Positions 49,509 to 58,422 of a stretch of DNA of 64,000 nt are shown here, in pieces. The translations under genes were made by a program, and so were the position numbers. The notes beneath the pieces are model-generated. The model searched no databases, was not told where the DNA came from, and saw only the letters and a list, made by a program, of their open reading frames with translations. The number at the start of each line of letters is the position of its first letter. The first letter of the stretch is position 1. Origin of the DNA: Gemmatimonadota bacterium (GTDB lineage Bacteria; Gemmatimonadota; Gemmatimonadetes; Longimicrobiales; Gaopeijiaceae); assembly GCA_027623325.1 (NCBI GenBank), contig JAQBXY010000002.1, positions 1 to 64,000 on the forward strand. Reading direction: 5' to 3'.

Positions 49509-50539
49509 TGTTTCGCTTCGCCGACATCGCTTGGCTGTGGGCACTCGGACTCGTGCCAATGCTGGTAGCCCTCATGTGGGTCGCTGCGCGTAGTCGTCGC
49601 CGTGCACTCGACCGATTCGGCGAGTCGGAGCTGGTGAAGAAGCTGACGGATTCGGTCGACGGACCTGCCCGCCGTTGGAAGGCCGTTCTGCAAGTCGTGA
49701 CTGTGGCCCTCATGGCGGTCGCGTTGGCGCGTCCCCAGTTCGGTAATCGCCTCGAGACGGTGCGCAGCGTCGGCCAGGACATCGTGGTCGCCGTCGATCT
49801 TTCGCAGTCGATGCTCGCCGAGGACGTGGCGCCCAATCGGCTCGAGCGCGCTCGCCTGGCCATCTTGCGACTGATGCGCCAGCTCGACGGGGACAGGATC
49901 GGTCTGGTCGCGTTCGCGGCAGATGCGTTCGTGCAGAGCCCGCTCACTGTCGACTACAGCGCCGCCGGGATGTTCCTCAACGCCATGCATCCGGAACTCA
50001 TGCCGGTGCAGGGGACCGATCTCGGCGCGGCGATGCGGGTATCACTCGACGCGCTCGAACAGGGGGCCCGCGATGCGCGGGTTCTCGTTCTGGTGACGGA
50101 CGGCGAGGATCATGAGGACGATTTCGGTGCTCAGATGCAGCGGGCCGTCGAGGGTGGCGTGCAGGTGTATCTGGTCGGCATCGGTTCCACGGAAGGGGTT
50201 CCCATTCCTGTGTTCGATGACGCGGGGCAGCGGCAGGGATTCCTGCGCGACGAAGACGGGTCGGTCGTAACGACCCGTCTTGCGGAGGAGACGCTGCAAA
50301 GGCTCGTGCGGGATGCGGGCGCGACGTATGTGCGTGCCGGGGCCGGGGGAACCGCGTTCGACGATCTGGTGGATGAGATCGCGCGTGGCCAGGGCGAGGA
50401 AATCGACTCGCTGCAGGTGACGCGGTTCGAGGAGCAATACCAGATCTTTCTAGGTCTCGCGTTGGTGATGCTCCTCGCTGAGGCACTGATGTCCGATCGA
50501 AGAAAGCACAAGCGAATTTGGTCAGGGAGATTCGAATGA
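49508..50539 (+). CDS. batB: BatB, membrane VWA protein
   Basis: A 343-residue paralogue of BatA with the same layout: N-terminal helices (WLWALGLVPMLVALMWVA and VLQVVTVALMAVALA), VWA domain with MIDAS D97-S99-S101 (DLSQSM) and VTDGEDHEDD, and a C-terminal helix (IFLGLALVMLLAEALM). The motif QGTDLGAA gives the MIDAS threonine. It overlaps batA as TGATG and batC as ATGA, so the three are translationally coupled. Order and lengths match the Bat operon of Bacteroides and Leptospira, in which BatA and BatB form large complexes. Confidence 0.92.
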   Translation: MFRFADIAWLWALGLVPMLVALMWVAARSRRRALDRFGESELVKKLTDSVDGPARRWKAVLQVVTVALMAVALARPQFGNRLETVRSVGQDIVVAVDLSQSMLAEDVAPNRLERARLAILRLMRQLDGDRIGLVAFAADAFVQSPLTVDYSAAGMFLNAMHPELMPVQGTDLGAAMRVSLDALEQGARDARVLVLVTDGEDHEDDFGAQMQRAVEGGVQVYLVGIGSTEGVPIPVFDDAGQRQGFLRDEDGSVVTTRLAEETLQRLVRDAGATYVRAGAGGTAFDDLVDEIARGQGEEIDSLQVTRFEEQYQIFLGLALVMLLAEALMSDRRKHKRIWSGRFE

Positions 50540-51294
50540 GGCTCGAAGCGACGGGGTGGGGGCTGGTCCTGGCAGGAGCGGTGTTCGTCTCGCTCGGCTC
50601 GGTCGAGCTACAGGCTCAGGCGGGGCGCGCCAGGGTTCAAGAGGGCAACCGCCTGTACGAGCAGGGCCTGTTTTCGGAGGCTCACCAGAAATATCTGGAG
50701 GCCCTGGCCGAGGTGCCGGAGTCGTCGATCATCCCCTTCAATGACGGTAACGCTCTCTATCAGGGGAACGACTACCAGAAGGCGATCGAGGCCTATCAGC
50801 GTGCCATCGAGACGGGAGATCCGGCGGTGGCCGGAGCGGCGTGGTACAACTTGGGCAACGCGTTCTTTCGCGAGCAGCAACTCGAACAGAGTCTCGAGGC
50901 GTACAAGCAGGCCCTACGTCTGAACCCGGCCGCCCTCGACGCGAAGCACAACCTCGAGCGCGTCCTCGAACAGATGCAGCAGCAGGATCAGCAGGACCAG
51001 CAGGACCAAGGCGATCCGGATCCGAACCAGGACGACGAGGAGCAGGATCAGGGCCAGCCTCCGGAGTCGCCGAACGGCGACCAACCGGAAGATGGCGAGC
51101 CCGACCCGCAGGATGGTCAGCCGGAAGACGGCGAGCAGCCACCGGAAGATGAGGCCGGTCGGCCTCAGCCTCAGGAGGGAGAAATGACCCCGGAGGAAGC
51201 CGAGCGCCTGCTCGATGCGGTGGAGGAGAATCCCGACGACGTGAACCGCAAGCCGGCAGCGGCCCGCGGACGCCGACCCAAGAAGCCCTGGTAA
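50536..51294 (+). CDS. batC: BatC, periplasmic TPR protein
   Basis: A 252-residue exported protein starting at ATG 50536, which overlaps the batB stop (ATGA). A signal peptide (GAVFVSLGSVELQAQAG) is followed by three TPR repeats (about 30-145; AGAAWYNLGNAFFREQQLEQSLEAYKQAL is the clearest). The remainder is a low-complexity tail of Gln, Asp, Glu and Pro (QQQDQQDQQDQGDPDPNQDDEEQ style; about 150-215) and a helical end with MTPEEAERLLDAVEENPDD. The acidic tail with the C-terminal helix is typical of BatC. Its TAA stop overlaps the batD ATG (TAATG). Confidence 0.9.
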   Translation: MRLEATGWGLVLAGAVFVSLGSVELQAQAGRARVQEGNRLYEQGLFSEAHQKYLEALAEVPESSIIPFNDGNALYQGNDYQKAIEAYQRAIETGDPAVAGAAWYNLGNAFFREQQLEQSLEAYKQALRLNPAALDAKHNLERVLEQMQQQDQQDQQDQGDPDPNQDDEEQDQGQPPESPNGDQPEDGEPDPQDGQPEDGEQPPEDEAGRPQPQEGEMTPEEAERLLDAVEENPDDVNRKPAAARGRRPKKPW

Positions 51295-53087
51295 TGAGAC
51301 ACGCGCTACGGGTGCTGACCACGCTGATCCTTCTTGCGATCCTCCCTCTGGGTGGTGTCGCGCAGGACACTTCAGCGCGCGCCTACCTGACCCCGGGAAA
51401 CGCCGTCGGCGTCGGCCAGCAGTTCGTGCTCAACGTCGAGATCTCGGGGACCCAAGCGATGGGACGTGAGCCGCGGCTCCCCGATATGAGCTTCGCGCAG
51501 TTTCTCGGGAACAGCACCCAATCCGCTGTGCGCACGGTCAACGGCCGCACGGCCGTGACGCTGACCATCCAGTACCGCTATCAGGCCTTGGTCGAGGGCA
51601 CCTTCACCATTCCGAGCTTCGAGGTCGTCGCGGGCAGCGCCACCCATGACACCGCGCCGCTGACGCTCACGGTCTCTACGGCACCGCCTGCCACTGCGGG
51701 ACAGGCGTCCCCAGGAGGGATCGGACCCGACGACCTCTTCATCACCGCCGTGGCGAGGAAGGCCACCGTGCGGGAAGGCGAACCGGTCGTCGTGGAGTAT
51801 CGGATCTGGACCCGCGTCGACGTCTCCAATTTCGGGATGACCCACGTGCCGGAGCCTGCCGGCTTCTGGGTAGAGGACATCACCCCGCCAGGGCCGCCGG
51901 TGGTCGAGCAACTGGAACGAAACGGCGTTCAGTACGCGAGCGCCGTCATTCGCCGGGTCGCGATGATTCCGACGGGGCCGGGCGAGAAGACGCTCGAGCC
52001 GATCGGCGTCGAAGCCCAGGTGCGCAATCGCGGCGGCCGAGATCCGTTCGAGGACTTCTTCGGCAGGAGCAGCTTGTTCGGGACGTCGTCGACGCCCGTC
52101 ACCGTGTTGTCGAATCCGCTGACGGTAACCGTTCGCCCCCTGCCCGCGGGTCGGCCGCAGCCGTACAGCGGAGTCGCCGGAACGCTGGGCATTACGGCGC
52201 GCCTCGACCGGGACTCCATCGAAGCCAACGACGCAGTCACGTTGACCCTACGGGTGACAGGCGACGGCAACATCCGTGCGGTGCCGGCGCCGGTCCTCGA
52301 TCTCCCACCCGACTTCGAAGCATTCCCCCCGGAAATCTCCGAGTCCGTCAGCCCCACACCTTCGGGTCTTTCGGGGACCAAGACGTTCGAATACGTCCTC
52401 ATCCCCCGCGCTCCAGGAAACCGGGAGATCCCGTCGGTGGCGCTCGGTTACTTCGACGTTGCCCGAAACGAATACCGCCGGGTCGAGACCGGGAGCCTGC
52501 CACTCACGGTCACGGGAACAGTCGTGGAGGGTCCGGCGTCATTGGCGCGGGGTGGCGTATCGCAGCTCAGGGAGGACATCCGCTTCATTCATCTCGGTGC
52601 GCTCGGCCTGCGCCCCACCGGCCGGCCGATCTTCGAAGGTCTGACGTTCTGGATGTTCCTACTGCTCCCGCTCGCCGGACTGGGTGGTGCCGTCGTTCTG
52701 CGCCGGCATTGGGATCTGCTCGAAGGCGACGTGGCCTATGCGCGTGGGCGGCGGGCGAGTCGGGTCGCTCGAAAGCGCCTCGCGGAGGCGAGCCGCCTCA
52801 TGACAGGAAGCGACGCGCGCCCCTTCTATTCTGAAGTGGCTCGAGCGCTCAGAGGGCTCGTCGCCGACCGCCTGAACCTGGCGGAGGCGGGGCTCCAGAT
52901 GACCGACGTCGAATCAGCGCTCGAGCGGGCCCGAGTCGAGGAGTCGGTTCGCGCCGATCTCCAGAGTTGCCTCGAGCACTGCGACCGCCAGCGTTTCGCG
53001 CCGCCGGCCTCCGATCCTGAAGAGAAGACGCGCTTCCTCGAGCGGGCGGCCTCGCTCATGACCTCACTGGACCGGGTGATGAAGTGA
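51294..53087 (+). CDS. batD: BatD, oxygen-tolerance protein
   Basis: A 597-residue protein of the BatD family. A signal peptide (LILLAILPLGGVAQD) leads to several tandem immunoglobulin-like beta domains facing the periplasm (to about 440). One transmembrane helix (about 455-475, LTFWMFLLLPLAGLGGAVVL) follows, then a cytosolic helical region of ~120 residues with FYSEVARALRGLVADRLN resembling the tail of the 47557 protein. BatD-type proteins interact with BatA/B and TPR partners. Two BatD-like proteins in one operon is unusual but seen in related phyla. It overlaps batE as TGATG. Confidence 0.9.
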   Translation: MRHALRVLTTLILLAILPLGGVAQDTSARAYLTPGNAVGVGQQFVLNVEISGTQAMGREPRLPDMSFAQFLGNSTQSAVRTVNGRTAVTLTIQYRYQALVEGTFTIPSFEVVAGSATHDTAPLTLTVSTAPPATAGQASPGGIGPDDLFITAVARKATVREGEPVVVEYRIWTRVDVSNFGMTHVPEPAGFWVEDITPPGPPVVEQLERNGVQYASAVIRRVAMIPTGPGEKTLEPIGVEAQVRNRGGRDPFEDFFGRSSLFGTSSTPVTVLSNPLTVTVRPLPAGRPQPYSGVAGTLGITARLDRDSIEANDAVTLTLRVTGDGNIRAVPAPVLDLPPDFEAFPPEISESVSPTPSGLSGTKTFEYVLIPRAPGNREIPSVALGYFDVARNEYRRVETGSLPLTVTGTVVEGPASLARGGVSQLREDIRFIHLGALGLRPTGRPIFEGLTFWMFLLLPLAGLGGAVVLRRHWDLLEGDVAYARGRRASRVARKRLAEASRLMTGSDARPFYSEVARALRGLVADRLNLAEAGLQMTDVESALERARVEESVRADLQSCLEHCDRQRFAPPASDPEEKTRFLERAASLMTSLDRVMK

Positions 53088-53863
53088 TGCGTGTGCGCGC
53101 CGCGATGTTCCTCACGATGACGCTCCTCGCCACGATGCGAGCGGTGGTTCCCGCACCGATCTTGGCGCAGGACGAAATCGTCGCACGAGCCAACCAGCTG
53201 TACCAGGAGGGAGACTACACCGGGGCGATCGAGGCGTACGAGGCCGTATTGACCGCCGGCTTCCGAAGCGGGGGACTCGAGTACAATCTCGGTAACGCGT
53301 ATTTCAAGTCGGGCGACCTCGGCCGGTCGATTCTTCACTGGGAGAGGGCATCGGTTCTGGCTCCTGGAGATCCGGACATCCGGGCGAACCTCGATCTGGC
53401 TCGACAGCTGACTGCGGATGCGGTCGAGCCGCTGCCCCGATTCTGGCTCCTGTCTGTGCTCGCCTGGTGGGTCGGACTGTTGCCCCGTGCTGCCTTGGTC
53501 GCCGTCGTCGCCATCGCATGGCTCTCGCTCACGTCAGGTGCTGCGATGCGTGTGCTCGCTCGTGGTGAGTGGGCCCGAAGGGTGGGCACGTGGCTCGCCG
53601 CGGGAGGGGGTGTCGCGGTTCTGATTCTCGGAACGAATCTGTTCGTACGAGAGGCGCGCCTGTGGGAGCCCGAGCGGGCGGTGATTCTCGCCGAAGCCGC
53701 GGCGGTGCGCTCCGCACCTGCCGAGGACGACGATCTGGTTCTCTTCGAGGTGCACGAGGGCACCCGCGTTCGGATCGATCGGCGCACGGGTAATTGGGCC
53801 GAGGTCGTGCTCGACGACGGCAAGGTCGGCTGGGTGCGAATCGACGTGATGGAGGTCATCTGA
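53087..53863 (+). CDS. batE: BatE, TPR membrane protein with SH3-like domain
   Basis: A 258-residue protein. A signal peptide (MTLLATMRAVVPAPILAQD) is followed by two TPR repeats (about 30-100; GGLEYNLGNAYFKSGDLGRSILHWERA), two transmembrane helices (FWLLSVLAWWVGLLPRAALVAVVAIAWLSL and GTWLAAGGGVAVLILGTNLF) and a bacterial SH3-like barrel at the C-terminus (RAVILAEAAAVRSAPAED, GTRVRIDRRTGNWAEVVLDDGKVGWV). This is the standard BatE plan. ATG 53087 overlaps the batD stop; its own stop overlaps the CTG of the next gene. Confidence 0.9.
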   Translation: MRVRAAMFLTMTLLATMRAVVPAPILAQDEIVARANQLYQEGDYTGAIEAYEAVLTAGFRSGGLEYNLGNAYFKSGDLGRSILHWERASVLAPGDPDIRANLDLARQLTADAVEPLPRFWLLSVLAWWVGLLPRAALVAVVAIAWLSLTSGAAMRVLARGEWARRVGTWLAAGGGVAVLILGTNLFVREARLWEPERAVILAEAAAVRSAPAEDDDLVLFEVHEGTRVRIDRRTGNWAEVVLDDGKVGWVRIDVMEVI

Positions 53864-54483: not shown

Positions 54484-55326
54484 ATGAGAGGAATTCGGGT
54501 GTTGTTCTGCGGAGCGATCGGTTTGACGCTCGTTCCGCTCGTCTCTTCTCCGCTTCACGCACAGGCGCCTCTCGGCTATGTGACGGCTCGTGGGTCCACG
54601 GTTACGCCCGCGTATGAGGGCTGGTACGGGAACGACGACGGCTCGATCACGCTCTCGTGGGGCTTTTACAATCGCAACTCGGAAGAAGTCATCGAGATTC
54701 CGTTGGGGCCCGACAACTTCATCGTGCCGGCCCAGTTCGACGGGACACAGCCAACCCACTTCACCGCGAGCCGTCAGTGGGGCACGTTCGGCGTCGTGCT
54801 ACCCGGGGACTACGATGGAGCCCCGGTTGCGTGGACGCTGAAAATCCGAGGAAAGACCTTTACGGTTCCCGCCAACCTAGCCGCCGAGTGGGAGATCGAT
54901 GCCCTCGACGGTGAGGCGGATGGAAACGCGGCACCCAGGCTGGCGCTGGCTCAGGATGGGCCATGGTTCGCCGGACCCGGAGGTCGATACGGTGACGCTT
55001 CCGCGGGCGTCGGTCGACCGATTCGACTCGAGGTTTGGGCCAAGGACGATGGCTCACCGTCGGTCAGCATCGGCTCCCCGGGGCGACCCGGCGTGCCTGT
55101 GACGCTCACTTGGTTCAAACACAGTGGCCCCGGTGGCGTGACGTTCGCGGAGTCATCCGCAGAGATTCCAGTGGAAGGGGGCATGATGGCGACGACTGCC
55201 ACGTTCGCCGCTCCCGGTGAGTACGTGTTGAGAGTACGCGCAAACGATGCCTCGGGGGTATCGAGTGCAGGTCATTCGCAGTGCTGCTGGTCGAACGCGT
55301 TCGTGCGCGTGACGGTCGGCAACTAA
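54484..55326 (+). CDS. Secreted Ig-like protein with a C-terminal CCW motif
   Basis: A 280-residue exported protein with GGAGG before ATG 54484 and a signal peptide (LVPLVSSPLHAQA). The mature protein looks like two beta-sandwich domains. The first (about 30-140) contains LSWGFYNRNSEEVIEIPLGPDN; the second (about 175-280) contains RPIRLEVWAKDDGSPS, a GGVTFAESSA segment and the ending GEYVLRVRANDASG, HSQCCWSNAFVRVTV. The vicinal cysteines before tryptophan stand out. The gene lies 15 bp before the cytochrome c-copper monooxygenase gene and is likely in one operon with it, so it may be a substrate-, metal- or electron-transfer partner. Family not named with certainty. Confidence 0.75.
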   Translation: MRGIRVLFCGAIGLTLVPLVSSPLHAQAPLGYVTARGSTVTPAYEGWYGNDDGSITLSWGFYNRNSEEVIEIPLGPDNFIVPAQFDGTQPTHFTASRQWGTFGVVLPGDYDGAPVAWTLKIRGKTFTVPANLAAEWEIDALDGEADGNAAPRLALAQDGPWFAGPGGRYGDASAGVGRPIRLEVWAKDDGSPSVSIGSPGRPGVPVTLTWFKHSGPGGVTFAESSAEIPVEGGMMATTATFAAPGEYVLRVRANDASGVSSAGHSQCCWSNAFVRVTVGN

Positions 55327-55341
55327 CCAGGAGTGCGCCTC

Positions 55342-56712
55342 ATGAGCAGGAAAGGGTTCCATATCGTGTTGTGGAGCGGGGTCGGGGCCGTGGTTTCCAT
55401 ACTCGGTGTAGCCGTCCCGCAGGGTGCGGCGCAGGAAGTCACCTATGCCCGAGACGTGGCTCCGATTCTCCAGGCGAATTGCCAGCAGTGCCACATGGAG
55501 GGTTCGATCGCCCCCATCCATCTCACCAACTACGAAGAGGCGCGCCGGTACGCCCGCCGTATTCGTGCGAAGGTGGCGGACAGGATCATGCCCCCCTGGC
55601 ACATCGATCGCACCGTCGGAATTCAGGCGTTCAAGAACGACCGCTCGCTGACCGACGAAGAGGTTCAGACGATCGTGAGTTGGGTCGACCATGGGACCCC
55701 GCTCGGCGACCCGGCGGAGCTCCCCGAGGCTCCCGACTTCAGCGACCCGCTCGGATTCCAGCTCGAAAGCGACTTCGGGGCTCCGGACCTCGTCATTGCG
55801 TCGCCCCCCTATACGCTCGAGGCGGAGACACAGGACAAGTGGTATCGCCCTCTGACCGAGACCGGCATCACGGAACCCCGCTGGGTGCGTGCGATCGAGA
55901 TTCGGCCCGTGGGCGCGGACGCCAAGACGATCACCCATCACGTACTGGCTTTTCTCCAGCAGGACGAGGAGGAGAGTGAGTACACCGTCGGCCCGCTCAT
56001 CACGAGCGCGCGCGGTGGTTCGATGGGTGGACCGGGCCTCTTCATGGAGTGGGCCGTCGGCAAGGAGGGAGAGATCTTCCCCGAGGGCGCGGGCAAGCTG
56101 ATGCTCCCCGATTCGAAGATCCGCTGGGAATTGCATATGCACGCGATGGGCAGGGTCGTGGAGGACGCGACCGTCGAGCTGGGAGTCTGGTTCTACGACC
56201 GGGACGACGTGCCCGAGAATCGCACTCGCCTACGCATGTTCGACGCTCGGGGTGAGACCGGCCTCGACATCCCGCCGGGCGAAGTCGCGGTTACGCAGCA
56301 ATATCATGTGCTGCGGTGGCCGAGCCGACTCGAGAACTTCCAGCCTCATATGCACATGCGCGGCAAGGTGATGCAGATGGAGGCCGTGTATCCTAATGGC
56401 TCGCAAGAAGTGCTGAGCCGTGTCACTGACTTCCAGTGGAATTGGCACGTCAACTACATCTACGCCGATGACGCGGCGCCGCTGCTGCCGGCCGGCACGA
56501 CGCTCGTGATCACCGCGTGGCACGACAACACAGCCGAGAATCCGAACAATCCCGACCCGACACAGTGGATCGGCTGGGGGGACCGCACGGTGGATGAAAT
56601 GGCGCACGCGTGGGTCGATGTCACGTATCTGAGTCAGGAAGACTTCGAGATCGAGGTCGCGAAGCGTGAGCGCATGGCCGACGACCGGGCGAATCGAAAC
56701 CAGAACCGCTGA
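55342..56712 (+). CDS. Cytochrome c fused to a PHM/DBH-like dicopper monooxygenase
   Basis: A 456-residue exported protein. ATG 55342 has AGGAG eight bases upstream; a signal peptide ends GAAQE. A short cytochrome c domain (about 36-110) binds haem through CQQCH (47-51), with MPPWH as a likely distal methionine. Then comes a two-domain copper type-II ascorbate-dependent monooxygenase fold (as in peptidylglycine hydroxylase and dopamine beta-hydroxylase). The six copper ligands can be placed: H199-H200 (ITHHVLAF) and H265 or H267 (LHMHAMG) for one site; H336, H338 (QPHMHMRG) and M420 (VDEMAH) for the other. It should hydroxylate a substrate with oxygen outside the cytoplasm, with the haem supplying electrons in place of ascorbate. 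Substrate unknown. Confidence 0.88.
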   Translation: MSRKGFHIVLWSGVGAVVSILGVAVPQGAAQEVTYARDVAPILQANCQQCHMEGSIAPIHLTNYEEARRYARRIRAKVADRIMPPWHIDRTVGIQAFKNDRSLTDEEVQTIVSWVDHGTPLGDPAELPEAPDFSDPLGFQLESDFGAPDLVIASPPYTLEAETQDKWYRPLTETGITEPRWVRAIEIRPVGADAKTITHHVLAFLQQDEEESEYTVGPLITSARGGSMGGPGLFMEWAVGKEGEIFPEGAGKLMLPDSKIRWELHMHAMGRVVEDATVELGVWFYDRDDVPENRTRLRMFDARGETGLDIPPGEVAVTQQYHVLRWPSRLENFQPHMHMRGKVMQMEAVYPNGSQEVLSRVTDFQWNWHVNYIYADDAAPLLPAGTTLVITAWHDNTAENPNNPDPTQWIGWGDRTVDEMAHAWVDVTYLSQEDFEIEVAKRERMADDRANRNQNR

Positions 56713-57969: not shown

Positions 57970-58422
57970 ATGGTCAGGAATGAACGGCTGTACATAGGTG
58001 TCGTCGCGATGCTCGCCCTCGCGAGTTGCTCGTCCGGCACCGCGGTTCCCACCGCGGAGACGCCTCGACCGATGCCTGTTGTCGAGGCACGCGACGAGCC
58101 CACGACCGCGGACGGCGTGTTCACGCTCGCTCAGGCGGAGCGTGGAGCCCAACTCTTCACCAGCACCTGCTCGGAATGCCACGACCAGGCCGATTGGACC
58201 GAGTCCGGCTTCAAGGGACGTTGGGAAGACCAGTCGGTTTTCCAGCTCTGGTACTACATCAACGACCGCATGCCGTACGACGATCCGTGGAGCCTAACGC
58301 GGCAGCAGGTGACCGACGCGCTCGTGTACATCCTCAGTCTCAATGGCCTGCCCGCCGGAAACACCGAGTTGGCTACCGACGACGACTCGATCGACGACTA
58401 TTGGATCAAGTGGAGTCCCTGA
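57970..58422 (+). CDS. Cytochrome c lipoprotein
   Basis: A 150-residue lipoprotein (lipobox LALASC) with one class-I cytochrome c domain: CSECH at about residues 67-71 for haem, GFKGRW, and YINDRMPYDDPWSLT with the likely distal methionine. A C-terminal helix (QQVTDALVYILSLNGLP) and YWIKWSP close it. Together with the fused cytochrome of the copper monooxygenase and the PQQ enzyme it shows c-type electron transport outside the membrane; which donor it serves is not known. The gene is 153 bp upstream of, and divergent from, the LLM oxidoreductase. Confidence 0.92.
   Translation: MVRNERLYIGVVAMLALASCSSGTAVPTAETPRPMPVVEARDEPTTADGVFTLAQAERGAQLFTSTCSECHDQADWTESGFKGRWEDQSVFQLWYYINDRMPYDDPWSLTRQQVTDALVYILSLNGLPAGNTELATDDDSIDDYWIKWSP

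Follow-up and report, generated by a model that had tools for sequence, protein, structure and literature searches.

Peptidylglycine alpha-hydroxylating monooxygenase (PHM) and dopamine beta-hydroxylase (DBH) are animal enzymes that serve in peptide amidation and in the synthesis of noradrenaline, respectively. In enzymes of the PHM/DBH type, the CuM site activates O2 and the CuH site gives the second electron, and animals reload both copper sites with ascorbate; DBH, which likewise uses ascorbate as its reductant, carries a DOMON domain. Reduction of a secreted copper oxygenase by a haem domain is known from CDH-LPMO, the cytochrome-fed lytic polysaccharide monooxygenases. Closer to the present case are bacterial proteins in which cytochrome c is fused to Cu2_monooxygenase domains, and because Pfam models already reveal this fusion in related proteins, the kind of enzyme is known. 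Here we describe a predicted member of this kind, CY, a cytochrome c - PHM/DBH-like dicopper protein, together with UP, the secreted partner encoded beside it.

The window, that is, the whole stretch of 64,000 nucleotides that was analysed, comes from an assembly of 3.35 Mb, and its nearest named relatives, at 76% identity, belong to the Gemmatimonadota (UBA1120 and others). Both open reading frames of the pair were found in the ORF list where the original prediction had placed them, on the forward strand: UP, of 280 amino acids, at 54484-55323 (stop 55324-55326), and CY, of 456 amino acids, at 55342-56709 (stop 56710-56712). The arrangement was also as claimed, with UP 5′ of CY, the two genes co-directional and 15 bp between the UP stop and the CY ATG; this gap contains AGGAG. 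The N-terminus of UP, read by eye, is a probable Sec signal peptide (54484..54561, with cleavage between LHA and QA), in agreement with the secretion proposed for this protein, and CY likewise starts with a probable Sec signal peptide (55342..55434, by eye). The terminator that was thought to close the pair did not hold up: the scan detected 1 site, a GC stem whose T tract is poor, compared to a mean of 1.8 in shuffled sequences, and the fold z of -1.1 is not above chance. Just upstream of the pair, at 50518-53863, TPR, BatD-like and TPR/SH3 proteins form a Bat-type cluster; the part of this cluster that was checked is not kept beside the pair in relatives.

The AlphaFold2 model of CY (pLDDT 83, pTM 0.82) matches PHM and DBH far above all other structures, in accord with the fold originally predicted. 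In a Foldseek search against the PDB, the top 31 matches were all PHM/DBH chains (E 6e-11 to 7e-9, probability 1.00), and the first match of any other kind followed four orders of magnitude behind (E 9e-5). Against PHM, the model reaches moderate TM-scores (about 0.57 when normalised by target length) and an rmsd of about 7 Å over both domains, so the domain arrangement of CY may differ. At the sequence level, the relationship appears with a profile (A3) built from eight cousins and five family members, CY included, which recovered human DBH (E 1.8e-7) and rat PHM (E about 7e-5) and placed the HH, H265 and HxH positions in register with the histidine ligands of these enzymes. Searches of the PDB with single sequences using phmmer did not find PHM or DBH, and the single CY sequence gave only weak cytochrome c matches in Pfam and none to Cu2_monooxygen; no match of the window CY above the cut-offs of PF01082 or PF03712 was found. 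Among 64 relatives, 12 match Cu2_monooxygen and 5 match Cu2_monoox_C with an E of at most 0.1. Relatives pass the Pfam cut-off for Cu2_monoox_C, among them some of the more distant, unpaired cousins (for example, L148 with 28.2 bits against 23). Taken with the ligands described below, the modelled fold supports placing CY in the PHM/DBH copper type II monooxygenase superfamily.

The complete six-ligand copper set of PHM/DBH was found at the positions originally given and is invariant in 162 aligned relatives, an alignment that takes in paralogues of about 30% identity and unpaired cousins. H199 and H200 (55936..55941), the predicted ligands of the CuH site, align to the HH of 1opm and 4zel, and H265 (56134..56136) aligns to the histidine of LEVHYH in DBH and LQVHYG in PHM. 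The predicted ligands of the CuM site are H336 and H338 of an H-M-H motif (56347..56355), aligned to the HTH of DBH/PHM, and M420 in a DEM motif (56599..56601), which lies beyond the PHM/DBH profile alignment. The third CuH ligand had been left as either H265 or H267; because position 267 varies among the 162 relatives (H/Y/F/T) and H265 is invariant, H267 was rejected and we assign this role to H265. The second-shell residue 263 is variable in the same alignment.

CY is further predicted, from its CxxCH motif (C47, C50, H51; 55480..55494) and a conserved M83 in an MPPW motif (55588..55590), to be a c-type cytochrome, with M83 as the candidate distal haem ligand. The c-haem motif, a feature of the original prediction, is present in every aligned relative in which its columns are filled, being conserved across the 162 sequences bar one or two gaps; M83 is a methionine in 161 of the 162, with one gap. 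None of the CxxCH, M83 and the six copper ligands varies in the narrower alignment of 64 CY relatives (A1). The Pfam model Cytochrome_CBB3 matches CY at E 1.4e-4, under its cut-off.

CY shares with rat PHM (1opm, 1phm), its top fold match, the core of two beta-sandwiches and the HH...H and HxH...M ligands, but differs from it in being bacterial, in its N-terminal c-haem domain and in its dedicated Ig-like partner. The only cysteines in CY are the two of the CxxCH, so that the disulfides of animal PHM are absent, and we therefore regard CY as a member of the superfamily rather than as PHM proper. Human DBH (4zel) is the best match to the sequence profile and has the same motifs (HH and EVHYH/HTH-type), whereas CY has a cytochrome c where DBH has its DOMON domain. 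The unpaired bacterial cytochrome c - Cu2_monooxygenase proteins (L148, L151, L154 and L160) resemble CY in their cytochrome c with MPPW, dicopper core and invariant ligands, but have no UP and show Redoxin-cytochrome c-Cu2_monoox or cytochrome c-Cu2_monoox-TPR architectures. In four such cousins (L148, L149, L154 and L156), Redoxin/AhpC-TSA, cytochrome c and the dicopper core are combined in one chain, L149 being so assigned by similarity to L148, and in L151, L152 and L155 TPRs are found at the C-terminus. The resemblance to CDH-LPMO is an analogy in the way of working, without a claim of homology; CDH-LPMO has a different, mono-copper fold with a histidine brace, and a b-type haem.

The partner had been described as a beta-sandwich protein, and its AlphaFold2 model (pLDDT 83, pTM 0.80) bears this out, being nearly all beta and consisting of two domains; a Foldseek search with the model gave generic Ig-like matches only. 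The N-terminal domain is a beta-sandwich of no named family, and the C-terminal domain appears to be PKD/Ig-like: the PKD profile scores 19.3 bits against a cut-off of 23.5, and 44 of 59 UP relatives match it with an E of at most 0.1. No NCBIfam family was found for UP. Through the 59 members of the UP alignment (A2), the motifs GWY-N-DG, FGY-NRN and GQPT-F are strongly conserved. The vicinal CCW motif on which the original prediction had remarked is present at residues 267-269 (C267 C268 W269; 55282..55290), in the loop that leads into the final strand of the C-terminal domain, and the HxQCCW loop to which it belongs is conserved in 58 of the 59 aligned UPs. However, CCW is not a defining mark of the partner: in one clade, 27 partners are without it and carry a short loop in its place, a difference explained by one change on the tree, and we accordingly rejected the motif as a hallmark of the whole family.

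The co-occurrence of the two genes in related genomes, suggested as a check of the original prediction, turned out to be nearly universal within the subfamily. UP adjoins CY on one strand in 78 of the 80 relatives fetched from named genomes; one of the two exceptions (L048) is explained by a contig end and the other (L080) is real. In a phylum sample, a draw of 150 Gemmatimonadota genomes with CY matches binned by bit score, all 28 matches of at least 700 bits, the closest orthologues, were paired on one strand, as were 93 of 96 matches of 300-600 bits, the deeper paralogues, and only 4 of 23 weaker matches were paired. This drop among the weak matches indicates that the pairing is characteristic of one subfamily within a wider cytochrome c - dicopper family. 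Most apparent orphan UPs were resolved on inspection: four of five adjoin a CY that is a fragment, lies at a contig end or was missed at first, and one is real. In the main clade, UP and CY are separated by a median of 34 bp, as measured from approximate start codons.

Gene order has switched about six times on the CY tree with adjacency kept, and some genomes contain roughly 10-13 CY-UP pairs. Within six genomes, paralogue distances of CY and UP are closely correlated (Mantel r 0.90-0.99, permutation p 0.0002-0.04), which indicates that the partners move and diverge together and are not swapped, although such agreement would also arise if each pair were merely copied as one unit. We further observed one divergent second copy (L059), in which CY and UP are convergent on opposite strands, and a CY-UP-CY triple (L115, G133:C7) with one UP between two CY paralogues.

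No third gene is universal to these loci. Only UP and CY recur in most of them, and we rejected a conserved larger operon, PQQ dehydrogenases and creatininase-family proteins being found in minorities of loci. PQQ dehydrogenases with a cytochrome c domain of their own adjoin the pair in about 25 loci, in varied arrangements, and none adjoins the pair in the window. These enzymes are abundant in pair-rich genomes, and their number follows the number of pairs (rho 0.96 in 12 chosen genomes, with pairs tallied by hand). However, some genomes of the 150-genome draw (G080, G090 and G025) have many PQQ candidates and zero pairs, so the link is suggestive only. Moreover, the richest genomes contain 40-56 PQQ matches, so that some would fall beside the pair by chance, and by a rough estimate the observed adjacency is in two- to three-fold excess. 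Two genomes (G115 and G117) contain an unusually large quinoprotein set, with 42 and 56 PQQ beta-propeller matches, respectively. About a dozen loci have a gene for a secreted creatininase-family protein immediately 5′ of UP and on the same strand (L007:4036-4995; also L005, L012, L037, L039 and others), a possible hint of an amide substrate. In the window, a cytochrome c lipoprotein is encoded 1.3 kb downstream of the pair (57970-58422); its kin include cytochromes that, in six relatives, are encoded next to or close to the PQQ dehydrogenases beside the pair.

Starting from the fold relationship, the conserved ligands, the haem motif, the near-obligate pairing and the co-duplication, all of which are directly supported, we infer catalysis, an electron route, a physical complex of the two proteins, a role for UP and a link to the PQQ enzymes. 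The reading that we favour, and consider rather likely, is that CY and UP constitute a secreted two-protein oxygenase unit, a haem-fed dicopper monooxygenase with an obligate Ig/PKD-like partner, with hydroxylation of a molecule outside the inner membrane as its probable reaction. Under this model, CY would be a dicopper monooxygenase of the PHM/DBH type, located in the periplasm or extracellularly. O2 would be bound at its CuM site, from which a C-H bond (or a heteroatom) of the substrate would be attacked, while the CuH site would keep the second electron in store and deliver it. The N-terminal c-haem, of the His/Met type and part of the same chain, would stand in for ascorbate by passing single electrons to CuH, and could itself be reduced by the periplasmic cytochrome c pool or by a quinoprotein dehydrogenase. 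In some loci, the product alcohol might be oxidised by the neighbouring PQQ dehydrogenase. UP would bind CY and most likely recruit or present the substrate, a role suggested by its being near-obligate, co-duplicated and diverging together with CY.

The main alternative for UP is that of a copper-loading or folding factor for CY, with the H-x-Q-C-C-W loop of the CCW clades as the presumed binding site for Cu(I). Both the retention of HxQCCW in nearly all aligned UPs and the near-obligate pairing would suit a dedicated assembly factor, but the CYs of the clade of 27 partners without the motif retain all copper ligands, and distant unpaired relatives keep these ligands without any UP; these two observations weaken the copper-loading role, which we consider unlikely. 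A different question is whether the two genes are functionally linked at all. The loci come mostly from related Gemmatimonadota, as would be expected if the genes were neighbours by shared ancestry only; however, the pair is also found in records titled Gammaproteobacteria, the order of the genes has flipped repeatedly, and at least 10 paralogous pairs in some genomes have kept their partners unswapped, so that adjacency by descent alone is hardly credible.

With respect to CY itself, the haem could serve a copper oxygenase otherwise than as a donor, by draining electrons in the oxidase or dehydrogenase direction, or the enzyme could act as an H2O2 peroxygenase, as LPMOs can. The c-haem domains of periplasmic dehydrogenases are often electron acceptors, and the adjacent PQQ enzymes carry cytochrome c domains too. 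Nevertheless, the full HHH/HHM set that characterises two-electron O2 hydroxylases does not vary, and an ascorbate-free periplasm requires an electron source, which the haem offers; we therefore regard these other uses of the haem as distinctly unlikely. A non-catalytic role for CY, as a copper or electron-transfer protein on the PHM fold, appears highly improbable, because conservation of all six ligands, the CuM methionine included, down to about 30% identity would hardly be expected without catalysis, even if the variability of H267 and of the second-shell residue 263 could be taken in its favour.

In the open-access literature, we found no description of the UP family, of the near-obligate pairing or of the paralogous expansion. 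More tentatively, the pairs might represent a large family of haem-driven secreted dicopper oxygenases, with about ten pairs per genome in some Gemmatimonadota, in which the Ig-like partner would set the substrate and the product would feed neighbouring PQQ dehydrogenases, a form of ascorbate-free, modular extracellular oxidation. CY would put ascorbate-free hydroxylation of the PHM/DBH type in one polypeptide and thus make it testable, and its predicted haem would allow the transfer of electrons to CuH, which is under debate for the animal enzymes, to be followed optically. Together with the partner that nearly always accompanies CY, the large number of paralogous pairs suggests that uncultured marine and host-associated bacteria have a secreted oxidation chemistry that is still unexplored.
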